The notes under the pieces were generated by a model. The model was not told where the DNA came from. It was given only the letters and a program-made list of their open reading frames with translations, and ran no database searches. Position numbers and translations under genes: made by a program. This document shows positions 13,001 through 62,800 of a stretch of 64,000 nucleotides of DNA, in pieces. Positions within the stretch are counted from its first letter, which is position 1. The number at the start of each line of letters is the position of its first letter. Source of the DNA: Amyelois transitella (taxonomy: Eukaryota; Arthropoda; Insecta; Lepidoptera; Pyralidae); assembly GCF_032362555.1 (NCBI RefSeq), contig NC_083505.1, positions 7,121,501 to 7,185,500 of the forward strand, read 5' to 3'.

Positions 13001-13257
13001 CTTGCCGTGAAGCTCTCTGAAATGATGAAAAACAAATTTCATATTTACCGAGATGAATTCTTAATATTAATATTTGTGGCAGTCCAAGCATAAAGGTACC
13101 ACTTGGGTGGTATTGAGTTAAGGCCATATTTGGATAGTTAAATAGTTGGTTGATCATATGGAATAAAAAAAAATTAATCATAATAACATTTCTTGGAATA
13201 AAAAATTTTCAAAGTTCACACTTACAAAAATCAAATTGTTGGGAAACAGGCATTGAA
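10074..13257. other. Intergenic DNA with two GC-rich islets
   Basis: No gene is supported. Two CpG-rich islets stand out from the AT-rich background: about 11,755-11,835 (TGTCGCGCGCGCCGCCTG) and about 12,790-12,850 (CCCGGCGCGGAGAGTG). They could be promoters, untranslated first exons or regulatory elements of a gene outside the window, but nothing in the sequence decides this. Confidence 0.45.
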
Positions 13258-13825
13258 AGTTTAAGCTGTATTATCTAAAGATCTAGTTGTCAGTTACATA
13301 GATTATTATTTATTATTATAGAGCAATATGTTTAGTATAAAATCAATTAGTTAATGTTATGGAAACATTATCGAATAAAAAAATAGAAGCTTAAAACTAA
13401 CTTTATAATAAGTTTAGTAAAAAGGCCCAGTTGAATACAATAAAATTTTAAACTGTAATAGCTAGAGATCTAGTTGTCAGTTACATAGATTCTTATTTAT
13501 TACAATAGAACAATATGTTAAGTATAAAATCGACTAGTTATTATTATGGCAACACCATCGAATAAAAAAATAGAAGCTTAAAACTAACTTTATAATAAGT
13601 TTAGTAAAAGGGCCCAGTTGAATACAATAAAATTTTAAATTGTAATAGCTAGAGATCAAGATGTCAGTTACATAGATTCTTATTTATAATAATAGAGATA
13701 TATATTAAGTATAAAATCGACTAGTTTTTATTATGGCAATACTATTGAATAAAAAAATAAAAACTTAAAACTAATTGGTAGTTATGTTAAGTTTAGGAAA
13801 TGGGTCGAGTTGACCAAAATTAGGT
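13258..13825 (+). repeat. Three-copy tandem repeat, 187-bp period
   Basis: The landmark GTCAGTTACATAGATT recurs with exactly 187-bp spacing (units anchored at 13,281, 13,468 and 13,655). Units 1 and 2 share long identical blocks such as AATAGAAGCTTAAAACTAAC; unit 3 is more diverged and fades out near 13,825. It lies directly 3' of the minus-strand ORF at 14,059-14,478, so it may be the subterminal repeat array of the same mobile element. Satellite seed is the alternative. Confidence 0.85.
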
Positions 13826-36262: not shown

Positions 36263-39200
36263 ATGGGGGGCGCAAGAAAGCAGGAGACCACGCGAAACAT
36301 CGCCATCCACGTGACGCCTCCAGACGAGGAAGATGACGATGAGTTTGTGCCGCCCCTGCGCGTGCGACGGAAACTAAGCACACCGCTTACGACTCTACCC
36401 GGGACCACAGAGGACCTGGAGGGAATACCACGTAAGGCTGCTGTTACATATGTGATGAGATTTTGTGCAAACTCTTTTAGGGACTTACAGGAATGACAGT
36501 CACAACGACTTTAACTGCCCAAAACTAATTAGTAAGGATTGAACAAGGCCTGCACAGAACTGGTGACTTCTTCGTGGACGTTGAAGGGCAATATCGTCAC
36601 TTTTTACGTTCTTGAATGAAGGTGCTAGTCGAAGAAGGCTTGAGGCTATGATGAAGATGAAGAAATAATTTTATGTAGATAATAATAACCTAAAATTACA
36701 ATCCTCATAACTATTTCAGTTATATCTTCTACTTTATAAATCGCTTTACTCAACTTTGAGCTATAATTAAAACTTAGTCTAGCATCTGGTGGCTGACGCG
36801 AGATTATTCATTTTAGAGTTATCGTGTTTTAATGCGAGTTCCTGGTTAGATTGTCTATGACATTTTTAATTTTAATACTTCCCTCAAGAAAAGATGTCTT
36901 TTAGCACTTGGCAGTGTCTTCATATACTTACTAGAAAGAATACCTTCTTCAGCAAGGCAGCTATCAAAAAGAACTTTTGTAAAAATATTAAGAAACTATG
37001 TATTTGTATAGACTCGCGGACATCATCGCCAGCGCGGTCGCTATCGCCGCTGGACCGCACCAAGCGCCGCTTCAGCACCATGGTATCCAGCGCTACAGCT
37101 GCTGCTGTGTCCCGACGACTCTCGGCCACTATCGGCTGGTGCCTCGCCACACCTACGCAGGTCAAACCGCAAATAGTCCGCCAGGGACGGGCGCTGTGCC
37201 TGCAGTACATTAAGACTCAAATTCGAAGATCTACCCTTTGTCAGAAAAAGGTAATATATTATACCTTTACATTATTTGTCAAGAGGATTAAAATGTAACA
37301 TTTATCAACTTTATTTATATTTCTCTTAATGAACATTTAAAATGTAATGTTACCTTTATGTATTTTCAGCAAATAGTAATGAAGCGTTTGCAACGAATGT
37401 TAGAAACTGAATGCGGTGAAGAGGCTATAAACAACACCGAGAGCGGAGTGCTGGCTGCAATGAGGGCCCTTTGTGCAGCTTTAGAGAGGAAGAGGCCCGA
37501 AGCGTTTCGGCACGTGGCGCGGCAAGCCACTCGGGCCCCCTACGCCATGTTGCGGTCAGACACGGCCCTAGCTGAGCTGGCTCTGGCTTTGGCGCGTCGG
37601 ATCACGAGGGAAAATATTACTTGGTCCAAGGTAAAATTGATTCTGTTTCTTAATCCACAAGTCTGACATATGGTTGATGGTGCACACAAGCATGCCAATT
37701 CACTCATGCCCTGTAAATTCCTAAGCTGTAGTAATCTGGAAACAGAGTTTTCAAATATAGGTACCTAACAATTTTGTTGTTTCACAAAATTACAGATAGC
37801 AGCCGTATACTGCATTTGTGGAGCGTTAGCAAGAGAAGCAGCTGAGGCGGTCGATGATGAGCCAGCATTGGAGCTGGTGGCGGCACCAGCGGCAGCCATC
37901 GCAGACCTGCTGCATGAGGAGCCGGGCTCATGGATCGCCGCCCATGGTGGATGGGTTAGCATTTAAAACCTTTATTCTTCTTTAAAGCTTATTATTTATA
38001 TAGGACCAATATAGGTAGTGCCGTGTGGTGCCCGGCACAAATAGGAAAAAGAATAGGACTACTCCATCTCTTTCACATGGATGTCGTAAAAGGCGACTAG
38101 GGGATGGGCTTATAAACTTGGGCTTCTTCCTTTAGGCGACAGGCTAGCAACCTATCACTATTTGAATCTCCATTCTATCATTTAGCCAAGCAGCTGAACG
38201 TAGCCTATTAGTCTTTTTAAGATTATCGGCTCTGTCTACCCCGCAAGGAATATAGACGTGACCACATGTATATGTATGTACATAGGTAAGTACAGGTCTT
38301 GTACTATATTCCAAATTACCCAAATAAATTATCTCGACCTGTGGACGTACATATCTGTTCATGAACATTAACAAGGCTAATCATCGTCAACATTTGTTCT
38401 GCTCTTTTGTAGATCATTTGATAAATAAATAAATATATACCGGGGACAAATTACACGGATTGAGTTAGCCTCGAAGTAAGTTCGCGACTTGTGTTACGAG
38501 ATACTAACACAACGATACTATATTTTTATAATAAATACTTAAATAAATAAATAAATATATACGGGACAAATTACACTGATTGAGTTAGCCTCGAAGTAAG
38601 TTCTAGACTTGTGTTACTAGATACTAATTCAACGATACTATATTTTATAATAAATACTTATATAGATAAACATCCAAGACCCAGGCCAATCAGAAAAAGT
38701 TCTTTTCTCATCATGCCCTGGCCGGGATTCGAACCCAGGACCTCTGGTGTCACAGACAAGCGTACTACCGCTGCGCCACAGAGGCCGTCAAAACTGAACT
38801 TGAACTATAATACAGACATCTTCATTGACATTTAGTAACAACAACGTCGTCTATATATAATCTTTTTCCAATAAGTTGTTAAAAGATTAAAATGTATTTA
38901 GGTACTTATACTTACTGTAATCTAGACAGCGGTGTGCTTGTTAAGTACTGATAAAATCAAAGTTGTTGAGCCATCGAGAAGACAGTGCACGGAAATTAGC
39001 TTTCAGGTCGTGCTGGAAATGGGGTTATATGGGAGAGGACTAAAATCTCCATCTTAATAAAGCCCATTACACATTGGGACACGTTCAGAATAGACGTGTG
39101 AGGGAATAGGATACTTAAGTTTATGATATCAATATAAATCTTTCAAGGTTAAAGGCATATGGATTTTTTCTATTGGATAAGCATTGCTCTTAGTCGTCTG

Positions 39201-40665
39201 ATTTTTGTTTATGCTAAAATTCTCCCTCAGACGTCTCTGGAGACTCTTCAAATACTCGATGCTTCACAAGCGGGAAGCGCCAATTATCTTGTTATACATA
39301 CATACATAAAATGACGCCTCTTTCCCGGAGGGGTAGGCAGAGACTACCTCTTTCCACTTGCCACGATCTCTGCATATTTCCTTTGCTTCATCCACATTCA
39401 TAACTCTCTTCATGCAAGCTCGGCGGTTTCGGGTACTTTTGACCTGACCCTTTACCAGGACGTCCTTAATTTGATCAAGATATGTTCGTCTAGGTCTTCC
39501 CACTCCGACCTTTCCCTCCACACTCTCCATGTATATCTGCTTAGTCAACCTGTTATATCTATCCGTAATATGGCCAACTTTTCGTTGTACGTTTTCGATG
39601 AAAATAGAGTAGGTACAAATAAGGATTTCCTTAGAATCTTGGTTACCGCTATAATATAAATAATATTTATAAAAGTATTAAGTGAAAACAAACAGACAAA
39701 AAGATAAACAAAAGTACCTTTACATGTAGGCATTATACATATGACTAGTCAGCTGATATGGCCTGGTCCATGATATCAATAAAAGGCACTCAATCAGTTT
39801 ATTTTCATGGGCATTTCATAGGCTAGCTCAATTGATAAATAGCCAGTGTCAATATAATGGTCAGCTCAATTCGCCCGTTTTGTATCTTACTTAGCTTTTC
39901 TAGTTCATAATTCTAACATGAGATCTATATGTATAATGTAAGACATAGGCGTTCGTATGCAAACTTACTTTTTTTTAACATATCGGCCATGCGCTTATGT
40001 GTTACGAACTCGTTGAGTGGACCGCCGACTGCTGACTTTACTTGGTCTGTTTATCGCATAGGTGACTTTCCGCATATTTTCGTTTATCGCACTACTTATT
40101 CAATATGCATCTCATGGAGACGCTGCAGTTTTGCGATACAGCAAGACAAAACACTCCCCGACTTTACTTAGTCGGTTTATAGCATAGGTGACTTTCCGCA
40201 TATTTTCGTTTATCGCACTAATTCAATATGCATCTCATGGAGACGCTGGCAGTTTTGCGATACAACAAGACAAAGCACTCCTCTTTGTGTAATTATTTAA
40301 CCTTCAAAACATTAGCAGACCGTCGCGTACCGTTTGAAATCCAAGCTAAGAAAGCAAACGGGAAACTCTATGAGAAAGACTACTTTTACGATTTTCGGCC
40401 TCATATAAATTGATGTCTCACAGTGTTCAAAATATTTTGAACTTTCTTTTTTAAATATAACATAACGCTTTATTTATACGTAATGGTTTTAAACATGATT
40501 TTGTTTCAGACCGGTTTGATAGAAAGATTGCGAGAAAGCGAACGTGACCAGCGATCAGAGAAAAACCTTCAAGTAATGGTGTCATTCTTCGTCATGGTGT
40601 GCCTCGTGCTGTTGCTGCTAAGATGGGCCCTCCATTCACACCCCGCCTATTACGATAATCTCTGA
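36263..40665 (+). CDS. Buffy: BOK/Buffy/Debcl-type Bcl-2 family protein
   Basis: Five exons: 36,263-36,431; 37,012-37,250; 37,370-37,630; 37,796-37,954; 40,510-40,665 (TGA). All have GT/AG borders and consistent phases (1,0,0,0), giving 327 aa. Order: acidic, basic N-terminus; RRLSATIGW block (about 95); BH3-like helix VLAAMRALCAALERKRP (about 163-179); BH1 ENITWSK-IAAVYCICGAL (about 217-233); BH2 SWIAAHGGW-TGLIERL (about 268-283); C-terminal membrane anchor (about 298-316) and a short tail ending YYDNL. The NITW and GGWT blocks match vertebrate BOK and fly Buffy/Debcl. Known role: regulator of mitochondrial/ER cell death. The BH3 has Cys-Ala where Gly-Asp is usual. Start: the frame is also open upstream to a possible acceptor (TTTTAG, ending 36,232), so an upstream coding exon is possible. 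An out-of-frame ATG at 36,256 precedes the chosen one. Intron 4 (2.6 kb) is full of repeats. Confidence 0.88.
38019..38281 (+). mobile_element. SINE-A in intron 4 of the Bcl-2 gene
   Basis: Full-length copy from GTGCCGTGTGGTGCCCGGCA to a TATATGTATGTA tail, same orientation as the host gene. Confidence 0.88.
38422..38789 (-). mobile_element. SINE-B, tRNA-headed, with duplicated tail
   Basis: Minus-strand head (38,789 down) carries A box TGTGGCGCAGCGG and B box GGTTCGAATCCC, a clear tRNA-derived RNA polymerase III promoter. It is followed by AGGGCATGATGAGAAAAGAA, GGATGTTTATC and ATAAGTATTTATTATAAAA. The tail is present twice in tandem with a 120-bp period (CGGGACAAATTACAC at about 38,442 and 38,562), ending in TATTTATTTATT. 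The same family is common in Lepidoptera. Confidence 0.88.
39295..39548 (-). pseudogene. Non-LTR retrotransposon, RT C-terminal fragment
   Basis: The frame reads VEGKVGVGRPRRTYLDQIKD, VLVKGQVKSTRNRRACM, MNVDEAKEICRDRGKW, VVSAYPSGKE, the typical C-terminus after the reverse transcriptase of RTE-type elements abundant in Lepidoptera. It has no in-frame stop, but everything upstream of the GRPRR block is missing (5' truncation). It ends in a TATG microsatellite. It lies in intron 4 of the Bcl-2 gene, opposite strand. Confidence 0.8.
40034..40285 (+). repeat. Two-copy tandem duplication, 126-bp period
   Basis: GACTTTCCGCATATTTTCG recurs 126 bp apart, along with ATGCATCTCATGGAGACGCT and TTTTGCGATACA. 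Copy 2 has a 4-bp loss and a 1-bp gain. It sits in intron 4, about 225 bp before the last exon of the Bcl-2 gene. Confidence 0.85.
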
Positions 40666-51000: not shown

Positions 51001-54000
51001 ACCGTTTACAAAAACCGGTTTGTGAATGCTCACATCCTTCGTAGTTCATTGAGACGATATCTTGCTTAAAGTCTCGTTTTTTTTTATTCTTTGCTTTGTT
51101 CCCTTTTTAATCGGGTTTTGAACTTTACGAATCAAATATATGCACGAACAAGTAAAGAATTTTGCAGACTTTAAGCAGGATTTTTATTATATTTTATATC
51201 TAGTGGGTTTTTACTGTTGTACTGCTTTAAATAAATATTATTAGATATTTAAATGTGTATAGTTAAGTATAATAGGAGATGATTATAATTAAACTTAGCA
51301 CATAAACAGTCCAAATTCCCAACTTTACCAACTTTTATTGTCTTGTCATAATTTCTTATTCAGATCTAGCTGTTGCCCACCGCCTTGAAAATTCACTGTC
51401 TCTAATTTCATCTCCTCTTTTAAACCCATTTCCCTTTTTTAACAATAAAAAGTAGCCTTCGAGTTTCAAAATATAATCAAAATCTGTTCAGTGCAAAGCT
51501 ACACAGACCGAGTTACTATTTTTTTATATATTAGTAGGCAAGTAGGGATAATAAGTATTGTTTAATTGGTATTTATTGTATCGTTCCGTAACGAATTAAC
51601 GTATAACATTGGTTTTACGTCTTAAAAATTGAACATTTTTTCAAACTTTGTTATATAATTGCAGACTGAATGCGGGAGTCAGTTTACATCAAAGCTGGAA
51701 GGCATGTTCAAGGATATGACCGTCTCAAACACCATCATGGAAGAGTTCAAAGAGCATGTCTTGTCCTCTGGCGTAAGTTTTTGGATATAAAATTAGATTA
51801 ATAAACAATTTAACGGCATTGTAGCCCATACTCGCACTTAAAATGTGACCGAAGAAAAACTTTCAAGAGTAAGTAAATAAGAAAGTAATGGACAGTTTAT
51901 GTTCAACCAAAAATGTAATTTTTTTGTGTTCATCTACTGTCGGAAAGTGCTTCTGCTGTAACATTATTCACTGTTGCATGGCATTGAAACGAGTTGAACC
52001 TTGTTATCTGGAAGGTAATTCAGCTACATGACATAATACACGGAGAGTATTTGGTAAACAGAAGCAACAATGCCATGTGTTCCGGCCCAGTCTTGTCTTT
52101 CTACTTCTAGGAAAATTAATGTATTTTTCAGACGAATCTGTACGGCGTCGAGTTGTCAGTGCGCGTGCTGACGACGGGTCTGTGGCCCACTCAGAGCGTC
52201 ACGCCCAAGTGCAACATACCCATAGCGCCCAGAAATGCCTTCGAAGTCTTCAGAAGGTGAGTAAATTACGGTTATTAGGTTACATATACACTCACACAAA
52301 TATCTTCTTCTTCTTCAGCATATATTCGCCCACTACTGGGCATATTTCTTTCCAATATTTTTCACCTAGCTCTATCAAAGGTTATTCAGGCCCAGGTTAT
52401 TCCAATCACGGCATTTTATGTCGTCGGACCAGCGGGTTAATAGTCTGCCAGTTTTCCTCTAGCTCTTGGTCGTTATTCCAGGACAGATTTGCTCTATTGA
52501 CCGTCTCCACGTCTGTTCACATAACCGGCCTACGCCCACTTAAGTTTAGCAAAACAATAATCTATACACACAAATATATCACGTCTATTTCTTACGGGAA
52601 ACATCATAATATTGCGTAGGATCTACACGGATGGAAAAGCAATAGGCACACATTGGTAATAACGTAAAAATAATTTTTTTTTCTCCATCGATCAGCATGG
52701 GAATAATCTATCTTTTTCAACACGTGATCAATTCATGTCGAGTTGGATTGAAAGGGTGGTGTGGTGTTTTAATAACCTACGCCACGTAGACTTGCTATTA
52801 ATTAGCATGGTGCTGATTACAGACACTTTTGACGAGTATAACTTAATTGAATGTTCCAGTTTCTACTTGGCCAAACACTCGGGCCGGCAGTTGTCTCTGC
52901 AGCCGCAGCTGGGCAACGTGGACCTGCACGCGACCTTCCGTGGCTCGTCCTCGCCGCCCGCCTCCCCCCACTCCCCGCCCGCGCCGCGGCGGCACATCAT
53001 ACAGGTGTCGCCCTTCCAGATGTGCGTGCTGCTGCTCTTCAACAAGCGGGACCGGCTCACTTACGAGGTAACCACACACTCCCCGCCCGCCTCCCCCCAC
53101 TCCCCGCCCGCGCCGCGGCGGCACATCATACAGGTGTCGCCCTTCCAGATGTGCGTGCTGCTGCTCTTCAACAAGCGGGACCGGCTCACTTACGAGGTAA
53201 CCACACACTCCCCGCCCGCCTCCCCCCACTCCCCGCCCGCGCCGCGGCGGCACATCATACAGGTGTCGCCCTTCCAGATGTGCGTGCTGCTGCTCTTCAA
53301 CAAGCGGGACCGGCTCACTTACGAGGTAACCACACACTCCCCGCCCGCCTCCCCCCACTCCCCGCCCGCGCCGCGGCGGCACATCATACAGGTGTCGCCC
53401 TTCCAGATGTGCGTGCTGCTGCTCTTCAACAAGCGGGACCGGCTCACTTACGAGGTAACCACACACTCCCCGCCCGCCTCCCCCCACTCCCCGCCCGCGC
53501 CGCGGCGGCACATCATACAGGTGTCGCCCTTCCAGATGTGCGTGCTGCTGCTCTTCAACAAGCGGGACCGGCTCACTTACGAGGTAACCACACACTCCCC
53601 GCCCGCCTCCCCCCACTCCCCGCCCGCGCCGCGGCGGCACATCATACAGGTGTCGCCCTTCCAGATGTGCGTGCTGCCGCTCTTCAACAAGCGGGACCGG
53701 CTCACTTACGAGGTAACCACACACTCCCCGCCCGCCTCCCCTCATTCCCCGCTGGCTTTGTCTTCATACCTACTTTATTGTATTCAAATCTTTGAATAAT
53801 TCCAGGAAATACTCAACGAGACTGATATCCCCGAGAAGGACCTGGTCCGCGCTTTACAGTCGTTAGCTATGGGCAAGCCCACGCAGAGAGTACTCATCAA
53901 ACATCCCAAGACGAAGGAGATTGAGCCTTCACACCAGTTCTACGTCAATGACGCCTTCACTTCTAAACTGTACAGGTGAGCAACAACTAGCCAGATTTCT

Positions 54001-55623
54001 GATACGAGATCTTTAAAGGGCAACAAAAGTTAGTACTTCCTTGACAACTGGCAATGACATCAAATTCAAACTAAATTCAAAATTCTTTATTGTTTAGAAA
54101 AATGTTACAAAAATCTGGCGAGACCCGCTCCTTCGCTACAATGACCTTATAAAATACATATAAAGAATAAAAAGGATTTTTTTTTATATAAAACAAACAT
54201 AAATGTAGCCGCTATTTCCATGCAAGGAAAATAGCATAATATCGGATCAATAAATGTCGGGTTTGCCCATACAAATATGTGTTTATATAATATTATATTT
54301 TATAATTAATTCCCATTCATACCACAATCTTGTAATTTAAATCAAGTCAGGCATTAAGCCGTCCTTCGAGACGGATTAACTAACAAAATATTAAATCGTG
54401 TCTTTATTTTTCATACTCGTGCCTGCTGACACGAGCTTTTCGCTTCAATTTTAAAATTTAAAAATAGTGCTTCAAAATACTTTTAAGAGCGGCTTCACTC
54501 TATCAATGTTCAGTGTACGCGTTCCATGAACGTTGTAGTACGAGTACCTATGCTTCACGTTTTTGCGGCCTCTACTAAGTTTGCTCTTATCTCGAATACC
54601 TACGCTAGTTTTAAAATTAGGCGGATTTGGCTAACGACAGCAAAGAATTCGAGAGATACACTTACCTTTGTGTTTTTTATCTCCGTACTACATCCCTACT
54701 TTACCGAACACATACGTACATACAATCATCACGTCTTTATCCCTTGCATGGTAGCCAAGCCAAATAGTCTTGAAAAGACTAATAGGCCACGTTTAGCTTT
54801 ATGACTAAATGATAGAATTGAGATTCATATAGTGACAGGTTGCTAGCCCATCGCCTAAAAGAAGTATCCCAAGTTTATAAGCCTATCCCTTATTCACTTT
54901 TTACGACATCTATGGGAAAGATTTGAAGTGGTCCTATTATTTTTCTATTGGCGCCGGGAAGCACACAGCACACATATTTACTTACCGAACACACATTTAC
55001 TTTTATAATTTTTTTACAGAGTGAAGATTCAAACAGTGGCGGCCAAGGGCGAGTCGGAGCCGGAGCGCCGCGAGACTCGCAACAAGGTGGACGAGGACCG
55101 CAAGCACGAGATCGAGGCGGCCATCGTCAGGATCATGAAGGCCAGGAAGAAGATGGCGGTAAGTACATTCTCATATAGTTAGATACTCTTATTTCAATTG
55201 AATTTGGAGCCAATGTTCTGGTCTATTATCTTCTTCATATTATTGTGGAAGGCACGTGAATAGCTCGGATGGTATACCATAACACAAGTCTCGAACATAT
55301 TTGGGGCTAGATTTATTTGTCTTTAAGAAATTTTGTTATCAATCTGGCTCGTTGGCTAATTAGTGGCCGTTCTGTCTGGACACTTAGTTGCATAAATCAG
55401 CAAACTAAAATTCTGAACTTGTATGTATTACAACGATATTATATAAGATGAATGTGTACAATAACTGCAGCACACGCTGCTGGTGGCGGAGGTGACGGAG
55501 CAGCTGCGCGCGCGCTTCCTGCCGTCGCCGGTGGTCATCAAGAAGCGCATCGAGGGGCTGATCGAGCGCGAGTACCTGGCGCGCACGCCCGACGACCGCA
55601 AGGTGTACACGTACGTGGCCTAG
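45048..55623 (+). CDS. Cul3: Cullin-3, E3 ubiquitin ligase scaffold
   Basis: Fourteen exons: 45,048-45,107; 46,447-46,644; 47,028-47,213; 47,846-48,049; 48,481-48,660; 49,203-49,397; 49,594-49,770; 49,964-50,134; 51,665-51,772; 52,132-52,256; 52,860-53,067; 53,806-53,975; 55,020-55,158; 55,471-55,623 (TAG). All are GT/AG with matching phases; the product is 757 aa against 768 in human. Cullin-3 bridges BTB-domain substrate adaptors (N-terminal repeats) to RBX1 (C-terminal cullin homology). Seen: [16 protein letters not shown] start, [39 protein letters not shown], the winged-helix end [16 protein letters not shown] and the neddylation site [11 protein letters not shown] (acceptor Lys about 701). 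Exon 11 is followed by five extra tandem copies of its 3' end with donor (52,954-53,750; separate entry); the canonical protein needs the first donor. Polyadenylation candidates: ATTAAA 55,802, AATAAA 55,979. A 3'-UTR intron from TAG|GTGCGT to an acceptor near 55,890 is possible. Confidence 0.96.
48761..48952 (-). mobile_element. SINE-A in Cul3 intron 5
   Basis: Reversed copy with a long CATA microsatellite, CGTCTATATCCCTTGCGGGG, CCACGTTCAGCTATTTGGC and CAAGTTTGTAAGCCTATCC; the 5' end is missing. Confidence 0.85.
50150..51664 (+). other. Cul3 intron 8, repeat-bearing
   Basis: The 1.5-kb intron contains the small GGTGCAACC repeat (50,525-50,590) and a Helitron-like fragment (51,366-51,537). 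The antisense frames here have no family match. Confidence 0.6.
51366..51537 (-). mobile_element. Helitron-like element, decayed
   Basis: CTAGCTGTTGCCCACCGCC at the left (reversed CTAG terminus), AAAAAGTAGCCTTCGAG, AAATCTGTTCAGTGC in the middle and ATATTAGTA at the right, the order of the TCCTACTAATATT type. Strongly diverged. Confidence 0.55.
52300..52570. mobile_element. Probable non-LTR/SINE-derived fragment in Cul3 intron 10
   Basis: TTCGCCCACTACTGGGCATA and TTATGTCGTCGGACCAGCGG resemble the widely repeated lepidopteran sequence that contains 'CCACTGCTGGACATAGGC' and 'GTCGTCGGTCCA'. It is recognised from memory only. The 180-codon open frame over it is not a gene. Confidence 0.5.
52954..53750 (+). 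repeat. Six 129-bp tandem copies across a Cul3 exon/intron border
   Basis: Units begin at 52,954, 53,083, 53,212, 53,341, 53,470 and 53,599, with a partial seventh from 53,728. Each holds 37 codons-worth of exon 11 (Pro/Ser-rich stretch, [27 protein letters not shown]) followed by the donor GAG|GTAACC and a little intron. Donors fall at 53,068, 53,197, 53,326, 53,455, 53,584 and 53,713. The period is a multiple of three and contains no stop, so reading through adds 43 residues per copy. Copies 1-5 look identical; copy 6 has CTGCCGCTC for CTGCTGCTC (Leu to Pro). The same property creates a spurious 300-codon antisense frame. Confidence 0.95.
54055..54713 (+). other. Cul3 intron 12, left part
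   Basis: Contains AAATTCAAAATTCTTTATTG, resembling the end of a common lepidopteran repeat, then AT-rich DNA without further features. Confidence 0.4.
54714..54972 (-). mobile_element. SINE-A in Cul3 intron 12
   Basis: Full-length reversed copy from ACGTACATACAATCATCACG to GCGCCGGGAAGCACACAGC. It ends less than 50 bp before the acceptor of exon 13 (55,020). Confidence 0.85.
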
Positions 55624-56006
55624 GTGCGTACCGCCTCCCGACCCGCTTCACGCGACCACTCCCAGCGCAATCGTTATCGAACTCCACTAGCAGCCGGACG
55701 TCGACGGTTTCAACTGTATCATAAATATTGTAAATAGCGGTAGCTTTAGTTCGAGCCTTGCGTGATGTGAGACAGTGTTCGTCGTTTCCTGAATCGAATG
55801 TATTAAAATCTTCTTTTTTTAATCCCATCTTTCACTTTACCTGTTGTCCGTGTGAACCCCGGTTAGCCTAAAATAGGTTTTATTTTCAGGCCCGAAAACT
55901 TCGACTTCGTTAAGTCCTTGAATGGTGGATGCCAAGTTAGCAGTGATAGAAGTAACAGAAGTATTTAAATTATTTCGAAATAAAAATTATTAGTTATTAT
56001 CACAAG
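55624..56006. other. Convergent 3' ends of Cul3 and Tectonic
   Basis: Only 383 bp separate the two stop codons. Cul3 has ATTAAA at 55,802 and AATAAA at 55,979 on the plus strand. Tectonic has an AATAAA on the minus strand at about 55,880-55,885 and another overlapping its stop codon. If the distal signals are used, the two mRNAs overlap in antisense by roughly 100 nt. Confidence 0.55.
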
Positions 56007-59000
56007 TTATTTTATTTGCTGAATTAAAAATACGAGACAATTAAATACTATGCTTATAATAATATTGTACTTAAGTTTATTAGATCTACTATTAGGAAAT
56101 GGAAAGAAGAAATCTCTGGGTAAATAAATGTTCAAATGTGGTGCTGCGGCATACTCGTACACGGTCGGTTTTGTTTCATCAATAAACATAGTATCAATAG
56201 TTAAAACTACAGTAATATCTTCGATGTTAAAAGTTACATTGCCAGCAGTTAAAATTATTTTTGCAGATAATATTCTCAGTATCTGATTCTTTTCGCCAGT
56301 ATTGGCGAAAGTAAATACATAAGACAGACGAGTGATCATGTTGTAACAATGTAATTTTGATCCTTGCTCATTATACTCTCCGTAAACAGGTTCTTTATCG
56401 TTAATGTCATTTAATAAAGGTATCCAATCCTTATCGTCCAGATTTAATGGATTCCCGTAAGGAGAAACAAAAAGCTTTCTTTTTACTCCTAGTAATTCGG
56501 AGATTTCTTTGTTAATTTTTGTACATGTGTTTGTATCATTAAAAATTCTTATTGGTTTTTCATATTGGAATCTACACTTCATCCTTTTAATGGTATTAAA
56601 TGTGAGGTAAGTATTCGTTTCATTTGTGATTCTGCATATTCCATTGGGATTATCCAGATGCATGATGTATTTATCTGAAGAAGTGCTTTTGAAGAAGTTG
56701 TGTGAGTGATTCTCTTTAGAATATGATACAATGACTGGCAAGCCATCCAAGTACCCCGGGTTCCCACTCATTCTTAGAACGTTGGTTGTTTCGTTTGATA
56801 TAACAAATCTGACATTTATATTTTGAATCATAAATGGCATTATGTTCAGAACCTTCCGAATGTACAATTTTATTGTGGCATTCAATATTTTGGAATCGTA
56901 GTAATAAAAGATATAATCAAAATTTAGAGCAAGATTTGTACAATTGACATCATTGCATGAAGGTTCATGCATACTTTTATTATAGTCAATACATTTTTCA
57001 CCTTCACAAACAATTATAGTCCAATTTGTACAGTGTAGAGTTGAGCAGTCCTGCAAAAATCATGTGTTTGTTAAAGAAAACAGGTTTTAGCGGTATTAGC
57101 GCACATACCACTAAGGTGCACACCACGGTATCATCATTCCTTGTAAAATAAAAGTAAAATATTTGGGAAAACGCTATGAGTTAATGTTGAATTTTTAATC
57201 TCACCAGTGTTGAACTGATGCTATTAGAATCCAAAACGCTAACAACTGTAGCTTCTTGAGAAGCTTTTATAATTTCCAACATTTCTAGATCTTTTAATGT
57301 CACGCTGCACTTAATTGTTTCTTCTTTTAAAAATGTTATCGGTTTTCTCCCAGTGCAATAACTATTAAAAACAGGCGTTGGCAGATCTGTAAGAAAATGT
57401 GATAAAATATAATACAATGCTACAATAAAATAATCCATAACAACAAATTGGACAAATTATTTATTACCCATGTATTTTATGGATCCATTTTTTAACACCC
57501 AAATATGGTCACCATACATGTACGGTTCCTTTGTGAATGTGCTTGGTGATTGGTATTTATCTTCAGAGTGCCACTTATAAATTTTGTCAAACACATTGCG
57601 GTCATGCTAGAAGGAAATTAAAAAACCTTTTACTTTTTATTATCATAAAGTTGTGTTTCATTTTTCTTTTATATATTTTGATAATCATGCAAATATCACA
57701 ATATACATATTTGCTTTGCAGAGAAAAACAAAAAATTCTAAAAGAAACAATTGTTACTATTTGTGCATAAAAGTTGGTCTTCGTATTCCTCGCCATTTTC
57801 GCATTTGGTCATTTTCGTAACTTATCATTGACATCACGTGTTTGTCACCTCTTGATGTTATTAACCGATAAACAAATTTGGATAAAATGACTAGTCGTTG
57901 GATACAATTGATGATAAATATGTGGTTTGGTGTCAAATGGGAAATCAGAAATATTTTATACATGTCTTTTTTCTCAATGCGAGCTATTTTTGCAGATTGC
58001 TCAGTATAAAAAACGTTTAACGATTTATAACGTATCCCATAACAAAAATTAAATATGAGAATTGTAACGGCTAAGTCTGCATGATGAATTGCGCATTCGT
58101 GACGAGTTTGCGTTTATTATGAGTTGTTATTATTCCTAATTTTAATGGATTCGTTTCGTTCGTCAGATTTTTTTCCTCAGCACCCTTAGCAGGGAACCAA
58201 ACTATGTATACCTCTAGTTGCCTAGATAGATTAGCGGGTTTCTTCACAATTTGCGATGCGTCACCGTGTGTTGGTTAGCAAATTAGGAACATACCTACCT
58301 AAAAAAAAGGCCGCGTTAGAATTTAAAAAGCAGCGCGTCACGAAATTTCATTAATTTATAAAAATAACGACAGTCTATGTTTGTATCACGGACGAAACCA
58401 TGGCGAGTCGCTAGTGAATAATAAAACTACTAATTAAATTTATGGAAAACATACCTTATGTCTTTTGATATTTCGTTTTTCAGGCAAATTGGTTTTAGCA
58501 ATACAAAACATGTCTATAATCTTATTGCCGTAATACCAATATATGTTGGGCATTTCAGAGTGGCACACATTATCATATCGATTCATAGTGGCAGTCTCTT
58601 CACCACATATGAATATTTTCAAATCTGACTCCGTGCAGTCACTATCACAGCAACAATTGATATCACATACTTTATACTGAAAATGAATGTTTCGAAATTA
58701 AGGCTGGTTGAAGTTCCTATTAAATTAATAATTTAGTACTCAGTATTATGCTGCCTCTAATGTTCGACGGCACTGTGATCGAAAGTGACGCGAGCGAGAC
58801 ACCGTTGAGCAGCGCGTTCAAACCACGCGCTTGACCGGCGGACCGCTGTAAATGACTATAATTATAGCGCGTTTCATTGCGCTTTTGCGTTTTCATTGGC
58901 GCTATAGCAGTGTTTACCGACGCCGCACTTCTCAAAAATGGCGTGGCGCGTTTGAACTGCGTGACGTGATTACGAAGTGGGGCTCTTGTAATTGAAAGCG

Positions 59001-60194
59001 CGCGAGTGTGATGTAGCCGGCGCTATTCAAAGGCATTCCTGAAACTAGCTTTAATTACGACCAATGACAACACCTATAACTTTAAAAATATTTTTATATG
59101 ACAATACAAACAAATATTTTTTCATCACTCAAACTGGATTACAACAGTTCAGGTAAAAACCTGGCGTGATATTTTGTCGAGTGCGAAACAAACACTGCCA
59201 TACTATTCTTTTCTGGGACTATTTCACTGCATTTGAGATCCTCTGGATAAGACCAGAACGCAGAAGTATTCGTCATGCAGTAAGCTTTAATCACACTACA
59301 TAAAATCCAAAATTTCAAGTCTGTAGTATGAAGATCTAGAGAACCTGGTGACCCTGATAAGAAAACACAAGAGCCCAATCAAACTATATTCAATTTGATG
59401 TCAAAAATCGAAGGTCTGGAGTATCTGATGAAGAACCCTTAGCTGTATTAGAGAAATGGTAATGCCTCTTTCTACTATTGGCCCATAAAAAAATCAATGG
59501 CAAATCCCACATTTCAACCAAAAGTGAAATCCCACCAAAACATTCTGTAAATAGCCAAGTCTTGATAGAGATGTATCAAGACTTAGTAGTTCGCAGGACC
59601 CTTAAGACTTGGCACGTATTGGTATGGATTTCATTACTTTTAAAAAATGCTAGATACAGAATGTTTTGGTGGGATAAAAATATATATGAATACACAGACA
59701 AATAACTATGTACCTATACATACCAGTAAATTGCAATTGCAATGTTCTTGTGTTAAAATTTTCTTGCGTATTATATTTGGTTTAATAGTTGCATTATTCT
59801 TCTTATCAAATAGAGTAATTTCAGTAACATTCTCAAATTCTGTGGTGGTGTAACTAACGTCAGTAGTGCTGACTAAAGATGTGTTATCATCATATAATTC
59901 ATCTATAATTGTGGTAGTTGCAAGGTCTGTTGTTATATCTATCATTGTTTTCAACAAAGATACATTTAGATACTCAGTTGTTGGATCATTGTTTTCTTGT
60001 AAATTACTTGACAGTGATCGATAGTACAGGGCATGGGGTTTTTGATTATTTCTTCCATCACTGTTTTGATGAAAAATTGTGTGATCATCAGAATCAGGTT
60101 TGTCTGGTTTTATTTTTCCTTCAATAAAAGAGATCACAGTGAATTGCATCACTATAGATAACAAAGTAAGACCTAGGAAAGTTATGACTTTCAT
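56007..60194 (-). CDS. tctn: Tectonic, ciliary transition-zone protein
   Basis: Five exons on the minus strand: 60,194-59,724; 58,676-58,455; 57,606-57,468; 57,386-57,205; 57,050-56,007 (TAA). All have GT/AG borders with phases 0,0,1,0; 685 aa. Signal peptide MKVITFLGLTLLS (1-25), a Thr/Asp-rich low-complexity stretch, then the family's Cys-rich core (CNCNLL, VCDINCCCDSDC, about 150-170), PTPVFNSYCTGRKPI (about 280), GNPGYLDGLPVIV (in the last exon), LPRDFFFPF near the end and a C-terminal hydrophobic helix. Many N-x-S/T sites fit a secreted or membrane-tethered ectodomain. Tectonics work in the MKS/B9 complex that gates the ciliary transition zone. The start ATG is 2 nt after the B9d2 stop; no promoter of its own is evident. 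Intron 1 holds a 21-bp inverted repeat and a GC-rich block. Lepidopteran use would be in sensory neurons and sperm, by analogy with Drosophila. Confidence 0.92.
58720..59040. other. GC-rich block in Tectonic intron 1
   Basis: CpG-rich sequence (GCAGCGCGTTCAAACCACGC; GCGTGGCGCGTTTGAACTGC) stands out in an AT-rich intron. The two quoted stretches are imperfect inverted relatives about 130 bp apart, suggesting a small foldback element. An internal promoter is the alternative. Confidence 0.4.
59141..59395 (-). other. Open frame in Tectonic intron 1, origin unclear
   Basis: A minus-strand frame begins near a CTTATCAG acceptor-like site and runs to a stop at 59,139 (CSVIKAYCMTNTSAFW, KYHARFLPELL). 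It does not fit between tectonic exons 1 and 2, whose splice phases join perfectly without it. Probably a repeat-derived remnant. An alternative exon is possible but would end the protein early. Confidence 0.3.
59529..59675. repeat. Perfect 21-bp inverted repeat, 105-bp spacer
   Basis: Arm 59,529-59,549 (core CCCACCAAAACATTCTG) is the exact reverse complement of arm 59,655-59,675 (core CAGAATGTTTTGGTGGG). The spacer contains a second, imperfect pairing (CAAGTCTTGAT and ATCAAGACTTAG), so the whole folds into a long stem. Likely a foldback mobile element; it lies just inside intron 1 of Tectonic. Confidence 0.85.
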
Positions 60195-60196
60195 GT
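60195..60196 (-). promoter_or_regulatory. 2-nt intercistronic junction B9d2/tctn
   Basis: On the minus strand the sequence reads AAG TAA AC ATG AAA: B9d2 stop, two nucleotides, Tectonic start. Such spacing suits termination-reinitiation or leaky scanning on one mRNA. Confidence 0.85.
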
Positions 60197-61805
60197 TTAC
60201 TTATATTCTACACCAAATTGAGAGAAATTTCTCAAAACAATATCGAAATCTAAGACTATGTTTCCTTTGGTTTGAGTTTTCAATTTATACCTGCAAATGA
60301 AGGCACTTAATTCCTATTCAAAATATTTAAATAAATACTTAGTCAGTCATTCAATAAAATATATGAATTACCTATCTGTACCAAGATTAATTATGTCACT
60401 TTGAAGTAACTGATGAGATCCTCCAAGGAATAACTGTCGTATTCGGTCAGACAAAGTAGTAGCTGTTGGAGCCCAACATGGCACATGCACTTTGTGATGA
60501 CCCGGCGTGACAGGCAAACAACAGCAACTATAGCCTACTATCCATGAACGACCAAAAGTGTCCAGGCAGCTTACCTGCAGCACTAACTTAGGCCAACCTG
60601 AAATAATTGGTTAAAAACTATGAAAAATTTTGGTTACCTATTAAAGTTTAAGTATCACAATAAAATAACATGTTGTAATTAAAAGGAATCAAGGATGTAG
60701 GGAATCTTCTTGGTATATGCCATAGCAGACTACTAGCAACCCAACGGACTACTCCTGATTCACTAGGACTTCAAGCAACTTCGGACTCACTGGAAGACAA
60801 CTGGCACTTGCAAGCTACTGAAGCACAGATTGCACAGCAAAATCAAGACTTCAGTCCTCCGGTCTTGGGGTACTGTGGCTATATCTACACGATACAAATC
60901 ACAAAAATAAAATGATATCTATTCTATTCTAATATATAAAGCTAAAGAGTTTGTTTGTTTGTTTGTTTGAACGCGTTAACTCAGGAACTACTGGTTCGAA
61001 TTGAAAAATTCCTATTGTGTTGAATAGACCATTTATCGAGGAAGGCTTTAGGCTATATAACATCACGCTGGAACTATTTGGAGCAAAGAAATAAAAGAAA
61101 ATGTAAAAAAAACGGAGAAAATTATTCATCCTTGAGGGCTTCAGTCATGCCCAAAATAACTATTTGATGCGGACGAAGTCGCGGGCACAGCTAGTATCTG
61201 ATATTTTTCTAACAAACAAAACCATGGCAACCGTTGCTATAGCGTATACCAAGAAGGTTGCCAAGGAATAAAAAATTAAGTAGATATCAATCTAGACTAA
61301 ACAAGGGCAACTATATATAACTGTCGCTCTCGTGGTGGTGAAGAGCACATTTTTAAATTAAAGTTAGCATAATGCAATGACTACATGAAATTTGGATACT
61401 CAAAGGGAAGACAAACCAATACTGAACAATGGATTGAAATAAAGTATGGATTGTACACCCTCTAGTACAGTATTGTATAAATGGTACAATAAATAAAAAC
61501 TAGAACCTTGAATTCCTTTTGTGATATAGTGCAGATCAATAGGATGTGTCCAAACTACTATGTTGTTATGGTCTGGCCTCCCAGATATTGTCTGACCTTC
61601 AGAATATCCCGAGATGACTGTCCAGTTGGGTCCTTGAAAACAACCAATAAATAATTTTTCAACAGTGCTGTAATATATTTTGAACATCGTTATAATAAAA
61701 TTTTTTGTACAAACCACTTTGAAACGAATATCGACAAAACAATGCAGTCTTCTCTTGAAAGTTAGAAGCACTCTGTAAATGCCCTATTACGTGCAATTCT
61801 GCCAT
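60197..61805 (-). CDS. B9d2: B9 domain-containing protein 2 (MKS/B9 complex)
   Basis: Four exons on the minus strand: 61,805-61,715; 61,632-61,507; 60,597-60,372; 60,290-60,197 (TAA). Phases 1,1,2... resolve exactly; 178 aa against about 175 in vertebrates. It starts MAELHVIGHLQSASNF and contains the B9 (C2-like) landmarks FQSGPNWTVISGYSEGQT, WTHPIDLHYITKGIQGWP, LDTFGRSWIVGY, LPVTPGHHKVHVPCW, FLGGSHQLLQSD and the end RNFSQFGVEYK. B9D2 binds B9D1 and MKS1 at the ciliary transition zone, the same complex that includes tectonics. The short introns have modest donors (GTTTGT in intron 1, GTTCTA in intron 2) and intron 1 uses an AAG acceptor (TTTTCAAG). Intron 2 (909 bp) carries a Helitron. The last exon runs without interruption into the Tectonic start, so one transcript is likely. 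Confidence 0.94.
60925..61194 (+). mobile_element. Helitron-like element in B9d2 intron 2
   Basis: TCTAATATATAAAGC-type start, GTTTGTTTGTTTGAACGCG, AGGAACTACTGGTTCGAATT, and terminal GAAGTCGCGGGCACAGCTAG followed by T. The closest relative in the window is 9616-10,073. It is antisense to the host gene. Confidence 0.75.
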
Positions 61806-62082
61806 GGAACCTTCTTTTTTTCATTACAACAGAACAGTATCATTTTTCTAAATCCCTACACTCTGCACTGGTAGCCCAAACAACTGCAATGTTTATTCGT
61901 TTGGTAACCATGGAAACAAAAGTGACATAAAATAAATTACACATGACATGACTTAATGACGCACAGATAAAAGACAGCTTTTTTCTTTGTTATGGCTAAG
62001 CGATGTAGGCTAGCTCAGCTAAGACGATTGATTTTGCTTTTAGAAATAATTCCTAAAACATAAAATAATCAAACCTTATAAT
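61806..62082 (-). other. Upstream flank of B9d2
   Basis: The promoter of the B9d2-tctn unit should lie here. The sequence GTAACCATGGAAAC at about 61,902 resembles one half (GTTnCC..GGnAAC) of an X-box, the RFX site of ciliary genes: GTTTCCATGGTTAC on the minus strand fits a full palindromic X-box, about 100 bp before the start codon. No other feature is seen. Confidence 0.6.
61902..61915 (-). promoter_or_regulatory. Candidate X-box (RFX site)
   Basis: Minus strand GTTTCCATGGTTAC matches the X-box consensus RYYNYY-N1-3-RRNRAC used by RFX/DAF-19 at ciliary gene promoters. It lies about 100 bp upstream of the B9d2 ATG. The position and the ciliary identity of both downstream genes make this a credible shared regulatory site, but it is a short motif and untested. 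Confidence 0.65.
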
Positions 62083-62800
62083 AAAACAGTAAAACAAATT
62101 TGTCTGTACATTGAGTGTATTTCCAAAAAAATACCTCATTTATAACGATGAAGATTTAGTAACCGAGCATGAATTTGAAAAAGTCTGTTTGTACATACGT
62201 ACATTTTCGGTACTACTGAACGGATTTAAACTTTTTTCGTTGTATAGCTTTTATACCTGGCCATGTTCGCCAGGTATAAAAGCTATACTAAAAAGCTAAA
62301 AAGGAATAATTTATAAAGGGTATAATTTATTTTGATTCCAGATTGATTATACCCTTTAGGTATAATTTATTTTGGAATCTGGAACAGCTGGTATCGAACC
62401 AAAATAACTCAGCTAAACTATAGGAAATATCGAAATGACGACTTAACAAAGTTGTTCAACCTGATGAACATTTACTGTTAGCGTATAAAAATCGAAGATC
62501 TTAGAAGAATATGATCGAAATGGAACTCCTGATGTAGAACCATTATAGACCAGCTTAATCATCCGAATTATATAGAACTTCTTCTGTCTTAACAAAAGTT
62601 GTTCAACCTGATAAGCATTTTCTGTTAGTGCGTATTAAAATCAAAGATCTGGAACACCTGATGCATAACCATTATAGACCAGCTAAATCTACGAGTTTTT
62701 TTTTACGTCTTAACAAAAGTTAATCAACCTGATGAAAAAATGGAAGATCTGGATCACGTGCTCCAGCTATTCTGTAATATGTACGGAAATTACAGCTTGA
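62083..62800 (+). mobile_element. Helitron-like element, rearranged
   Basis: The 5' block ATAATAAAACAGTAAAAC and TTGTCTGTACATTGAGTG match the minus-strand start of 4278-4870, and ATACCTGGCCATGTTCGCC, ATTTTGGAATCTGGAAC, CAGCTAAACTATAGGAAATA follow in the same order. A unit around GTTGTTCAACCTGATGA...GAAGATCT repeats about three times (62,450-62,755). The 3' terminus is not intact. Confidence 0.65.

Follow-up and report, generated by a model that had tools for sequence, protein, structure and literature searches.

A putative dicistronic B9d2–tectonic mRNA in the moth Amyelois transitella and a methionine deficit in lepidopteran B9D2

How is a protein made from a reading frame that opens two nucleotides after another one has closed? 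The question is raised by two genes, coding for the B9-domain protein B9D2 and for tectonic, within a 64,000-nucleotide stretch (the window) of the genome of Amyelois transitella (Lepidoptera, Pyralidae; GCF_032362555.1, contig NC_083505.1, positions 7,121,501–7,185,500 of the forward strand). Rebuilt from the DNA, B9d2 occupies 61,805–60,197 of the minus strand, with four coding exons that join in phase into 178 codons plus a TAA, and tectonic follows on the same strand at 60,194–56,007, with five exons joining in phase into 685 codons and a stop. All three B9d2 introns and all four tectonic introns have GT...AG ends. The initial annotation had placed the B9d2 stop (60,199–60,197) and the tectonic ATG (60,194) two nucleotides apart in one exon and had described both models as complete and phase-consistent; the DNA confirms the first statement, and the exon joining, the intron ends and the domain matches given below bear out the second. 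The distance falls inside the −34 to 319 nt found from stop to start in exclusively polycistronic fly loci (PMC4528330).

The B9-C2 domain spans residues 4–166 of the window B9D2 (E 1.9e-53), which has the size of about 175 amino acids and the MAE start of its family; the open reading frame piece over exon 3 (60,368–60,610) matches this domain on its own (E 1.6e-23). For tectonic, the domains TCTN_DUF1619 (E 1.2e-9) and DUF1619_N (E 1.8e-9) were recovered at 39.2 and 38.5 bits, against a Pfam cut-off of 22 each, and the closest tectonic found is that of Plodia interpunctella (66% identity), followed by those of Aphomia, Galleria, and Achroia. Hydrophobic stretches can be seen by eye at both ends of tectonic. 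In the lepidopteran alignments the C-terminus of the window B9D2 lines up with the ends of all 26 other rows, and the start of tectonic with that of 20 of the 28 other rows; six tectonic rows (P0082, P0084, P0090, P0092, P0098, and P0102) begin at or near an internal methionine (Met), P0097 is truncated and P0103 has a different beginning. These matches indicate that both reading frames are conserved proteins, beyond what chance would give. No solved structure matched B9D2 at E 0.001, a phage collection searched with the shared exon gave no match, as expected, and viral contigs compared with the moth DNA returned two stretches fitting a pattern, neither of them a relative. In all nine species whose displayed names are in both homologue lists, the B9D2 and tectonic records agree in longest-contig size, and there the two genes are probably on the same chromosome or scaffold. 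Their locus tags are consecutive in Mythimna separata (001055/001054) and 16 apart in Scirpophaga incertulas (009919/009903), where the tags do not establish adjacency.

The B9d2 frame of the window has no internal in-frame Met codon, and the same holds for 24 of 24 start-complete B9D2 proteins from named Lepidoptera; two of the 26 named rows were set aside, being without the MAE start and having one Met each, and among three further close relatives two have no internal Met and one has a single Met. Outside Lepidoptera, within the best 120 of 608 matches, only 6 of 85 start-complete rows are free of internal Met (87 rows were named, two without start). A hand-picked set of 61 rows sorted by group gave Met-free proteins in 2/14 Diptera, 0/3 Hymenoptera, 0/11 other insects, 2/6 Crustacea, and 0/27 other animals, and the count was redone on all 87 named rows. 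Four rows counted apart (P0048, P0051, P0056, and P0057) included one Met-free protein, the first two being in the Diptera tree and the last two not, and 105 further proteins among the matches comprised nine without start and 7 Met-free among the remaining 96. A motif xMGx[VIL] lies near the C-terminus in 47 of the 87 named non-lepidopteran rows; judged by eye, the lepidopteran rows examined mostly have Lys in place of its Met, and the mosquito rows Ser or Ala.

Expected changes to Met were obtained by applying LG exchange rates to the parsimony changes on each tree. The lepidopteran B9D2 tree held 27 rows (the window, 23 named rows and P0005, P0015, and P0020), leaving out P0026, P0028, and P0029, which lack the start or an exon, as well as fragments (P0030, P0034, P0038, and P0053 among them); the tectonic tree held 29 rows, with P0088 in and P0105 out. 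Among 898 parsimony changes in lepidopteran B9D2 a single one led to Met versus 35.9 expected, the corresponding values being 199.3 and 209.0 in lepidopteran tectonic, 17.9 and 29.4 in B9D2 of other arthropods, and 28.1 and 35.4 in other animals. Scaled by the rate of other animals the lepidopteran B9D2 expectation becomes 28 (P 1.7e-11), and by that of other arthropods 22 (P 4.7e-9). Of all 20 residues Met has by far the strongest deficit (P 8.6e-15, followed by Ala with 1.1e-4), and this holds when P0005, P0015, and P0020 are removed (0 versus 32.1 expected). Columns varying among Ile, Leu, and Val also contained Met in 1/51 cases in lepidopteran B9D2, 2/43 in Diptera, 11/48 in other arthropods, and 13/45 in other animals, compared with 126/304 in lepidopteran tectonic. 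In 200 LG+G simulations from a Met-free root, on average 21.5% of the leaves ended Met-free (maximum 59.3%), versus 26 of 27 observed. These comparisons indicate that Met codons are avoided in B9D2 across Lepidoptera. A weaker deficit is found in Diptera (4 changes overall versus 18.3 or, in a second count, 18.4 expected, 2 versus 15.1 in the first 150 residues, and 4 versus 12.6 over exons 3 and 4; scaling gives P values from 1.1e-2 down to 5.1e-4), and the mosquito proteins examined mostly have a Met in ELMLIF or a similar string near the C-terminus.

The shared exon, the two-nucleotide gap and this Met avoidance are the reasons why one dicistronic B9d2–tectonic mRNA is strongly favoured as the probable transcript. 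Our preferred reading, to which we give a probability of about 0.72, is that tectonic would be reached on it by leaky scanning past the B9d2 AUG and that the avoidance of Met would be selected. A T at −3 makes a weak start context and an A a strong one; the B9d2 ATG has T and the tectonic ATG has A. One capped and spliced mRNA, starting upstream of B9d2, would yield both proteins: at the weak B9d2 AUG only some scanning ribosomes would initiate, and the remaining ones would cross the B9d2 coding region, in which no other in-frame AUG follows, and begin translation at the strong-context tectonic AUG. The three out-of-frame ATGs of B9d2 open frames of 5, 31, and 10 codons that close 115–252 nt before the tectonic ATG, which would leave space to resume scanning and reinitiate. 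An in-frame AUG would be costly under scanning, because a ribosome starting there would terminate two nucleotides short of the tectonic AUG, a distance too small for reloading; the usual rule is that reinitiation after a short upstream frame requires a minimum distance (PMC5972666). Selection for tectonic output would in this way keep Met codons out of lepidopteran B9D2. The initial annotation had proposed one mRNA for both proteins, by reinitiation or leaky scanning: the joint mRNA, which we infer, keeps its place, and of the two routes the Met pattern favours the second. Its statement that the two proteins belong to the same complex agrees with their common membership of the MKS module in flies (PMC5087661). 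The fixed stoichiometry that it deduced finds no support, as under leaky scanning the ratio would be set by start context, and tagged B9D2 reaches beyond tectonic in the spermatocytes of flies (PMC5087661).

Several points weigh against this reading. The case for a joint transcript is drawn from DNA and protein sequence, and the start contexts come from a single species. The first 72 residues of B9D2 are also Met-poor elsewhere (other arthropods 0 versus about 9.5 expected, other animals 5.9 versus 12.0), and the fold itself therefore accounts for part of the deficit. By these counts the lepidopteran signal rests on exons 3 and 4, with 1 change to Met versus 24.8 expected, compared to 18.1 versus 20.0 in other arthropods and 22.5 versus 23.2 in other animals. 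Out-of-frame ATGs in the one B9d2 sequence of the window are at the level given by synonymous codon shuffling (3 versus 2.7), and the AUG avoidance is therefore shown in frame only; over all frames there are 4 ATGs, the start included, versus 10.9 calculated from dinucleotides. Parsimony changes are partly dependent on each other and the LG model is an average one; the simulation is a rough null with Plutella as root and a rate shape set by us and not fitted. Other orders, beetles included, are thinly represented or absent in the comparison rows. Finally, two candidate upstream open reading frames overlapping the B9d2 start count against this reading as well; their ATGs (61,843 and 61,824), if present in the mRNA, would lower B9D2 and still send ribosomes across B9d2.

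The closest competitor to leaky scanning keeps the dicistronic mRNA and has the ribosomes that finish B9D2 restart two nucleotides further on, by termination-reinitiation. The gap is short, the coupling of frames at UAAUG in influenza B segment 7 is about 10% efficient (PMC3035654), and DENR-MCT-1 might abolish the need for distance in reinitiation (PMC5972666). Yet the minimum distance already mentioned stands in its way, the B9d2 stop and the tectonic start do not overlap as in the viral UAAUG, and it offers no reason for purging in-frame AUGs that all end at the same stop. It is because an internal in-frame AUG ending at the B9D2 stop would be harmless under reinitiation that leaky scanning is favoured, and we regard this route as unlikely. 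Internal in-frame AUGs would be just as costless to tectonic if it had a separate promoter or an internal entry site.

The separate promoter corresponds to two overlapping genes, with a tectonic promoter inside the B9d2 introns or exons and a poly(A) site of B9d2 in the first exon or first intron of tectonic. An AATAAA lies 82 bases past the B9d2 stop, although the window has 2.1 copies of this hexamer per kb on each strand, and the usual fly X-box consensus is matched within B9d2 intron 2 (61,269–61,257). The site upstream of B9d2, GTAACCATGGAAAC, has no such match: in our reading it does not fit the usual RYYNYYN1-3RRNRAC, the one form it agrees with being the looser RYNNYY given in PMC2375033. 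Nevertheless, the degenerate consensus gives 83 rows in the window, an X-box alone is no predictor of regulation (PMC2375033), and the stricter palindrome puts the better X-box upstream of B9d2. One-mismatch palindromes of this kind number nine rows at eight sites in the window (3.55 expected), and the upstream site as an X-box of B9d2 is suggestive only; as proof of a single promoter it was rejected, since it misses the usual consensus, which has nine matches elsewhere in 55,500–62,700. Among the 159 fly dicistronic pairs of one release, monocistronic forms of both genes occur in 45 and of one gene in 69 (PMC4528330), and separate tectonic or B9d2 isoforms may coexist with the dicistronic model. 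As the sole explanation, two overlapping genes would leave the Met avoidance along B9D2 unexplained, and we hold it slightly less probable still than reinitiation.

It could also be argued that Met was lost only to prevent N-terminally shortened B9D2 when the weak AUG is skipped, and not to protect tectonic. This would account for avoidance in frame without avoidance out of frame, but it presupposes leaky scanning, and those ribosomes would go on to reach the tectonic AUG, so that the idea supplements leaky scanning to tectonic and as its replacement is quite improbable. A B9d2–tectonic fusion by readthrough was rejected because tectonic lies in another frame, which is closed by a TAA at 60,203–60,201, six bases before the ATG.

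For the fly counterparts, the initial annotation had named neighbouring genes with consecutive CG numbers. The older model CG9227 was later split into CG42730 and CG42731, and the fly B9d2/tctn pair is probably already annotated as dicistronic; the neighbourhood receives indirect support from CG9227. A 2007 fly paper names CG9227 tectonic, yet counts it among the B9-domain genes and pairs it with human NP_085055 (PMC2375033), which is B9D2 (PMC4092220). In our reading the old CG9227 model took in both reading frames, which would make the Drosophila B9d2/tctn locus a counterpart of the moth pair. The gene has an RFX-dependent reporter, and its X-boxes are listed 119 and 146 bases before the ATG in two fly species (PMC2375033). 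In the literature searched, CG42730 and CG42731 were not found and CG9227 appeared in one paper; among the papers listed B9d2–tctn was not found described as a dicistron, and no search was aimed at the Met deficit. The names B9d2 and tctn do not occur in the main text of PMC4528330, nor does "cistron" in the passages of PMC5087661.

Similar arrangements are known. For the dicistronic transcripts of Drosophila stoned (stnA/stnB) and Snapin, a first frame devoid of in-frame AUGs, a poor context at its start, and leaky scanning to the second frame are reported (PMC11892635, PMC3372440). The moth pair resembles them in having no further in-frame AUG in its first frame and a weak first and strong second context (in one species), and differs in that its products share one ciliary module, that AUG avoidance is documented order-wide, and that translation is deduced from sequence. 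The green-algal bicistronic loci combine a weak first and a strong second context, AUG depletion before the second frame, short gaps, and leaky scanning tested in vivo (PMC11892635). Their genes are unrelated to ours and their AUG depletion covers all frames, unlike the three out-of-frame ATGs against 2.7 in the moth, and we do not file the moth pair as an algal-type dicistron. Drosophila Mocs2 and CG42503, two subunits of one enzyme, form a polycistronic locus of other genes, whose second-frame translation mode is not stated in the relevant section of PMC4528330. Dicistronic genes are common in flies, and the moth pair adds an unusually clear evolutionary mark.

Table 1. Positions of the gene pair and of nearby sequence elements in the window.
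Feature	Position	Strand	Remark
X-box-like (RFX) near-palindrome GTAACCATGGAAAC	61904..61917		Differs from GTTNCC-N2-GGNAAC in one position; lies 98 bases upstream of B9d2 ATG
Candidate upstream open reading frame, 18 codons	61787..61843	-	Overlaps B9d2 start; in mRNA only if transcription starts further upstream
Second candidate upstream open reading frame, 20 codons	61,824-61,762	-	Overlaps B9d2 start; in mRNA only if transcription starts further upstream
B9d2 coding exon 1	61715..61805	-	Start ATG at 61,805, context GGTTCC-ATG-G
B9d2 coding exon 2	61507..61632	-	
B9d2 coding exon 3	60372..60597	-	All three internal B9d2 ATGs lie here, each out of frame
Shared exon	59724..60290	-	B9d2 exon 4 (60,290-60,197 with TAA) + AC + tectonic exon 1 (60,194-59,724)
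Gap (AC) of 2 nt, B9d2 stop to tectonic ATG	60195..60196	-	Tectonic context GTAAAC-ATG-A
AATAAA	60109..60114	-	Candidate poly(A) signal of a monocistronic B9d2 mRNA, unless due to chance
Tectonic exon 2 (DUF1619_N region)	58455..58676	-	
Tectonic exon 3	57468..57606	-	
Tectonic exon 4	57205..57386	-	
Tectonic exon 5 with stop	56007..57050	-	AATAAA at 56,016-56,011 adjoins the stop

Converging on tectonic, the plus strand at 55465–55623 encodes a cullin-3-like C-terminus ending in VYTYVA. At 52950–53752 of the same strand a 129-base unit, which contains a cullin-3-like exon piece with its splice donor, is repeated about 6.2 times at 99% likeness, and the frame is open through all copies (open reading frame 52663–53799); the array may have arisen recently from an exon or be an artefact of assembly. 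Other long-period tandem repeats are located at 13256–13774 (187 bases), 38421–38670 (120 bases), and 40034–40281 (126 bases), and an open reading frame piece at 37292–37666 on the plus strand resembles by eye a Bcl-2 family protein.

A wider version of our reading, which we consider about as probable as its opposite, is a two-gene ciliary "operon" that would predate the split of moths and flies, the need for scanning having stripped B9D2 of Met, including that of xMGx[VIL], and blocked its regain. If the dicistronic reading is true, two parts of the transition-zone module would be made together from one animal mRNA throughout an insect order, and mutations in insect B9d2 may act via tectonic. 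The route by which a downstream gene is translated would then leave a readable trace in the amino acids of the upstream protein, and a lack of Met where Leu, Ile, and Val replace one another freely could reveal other scanning-dependent pairs from protein data alone.

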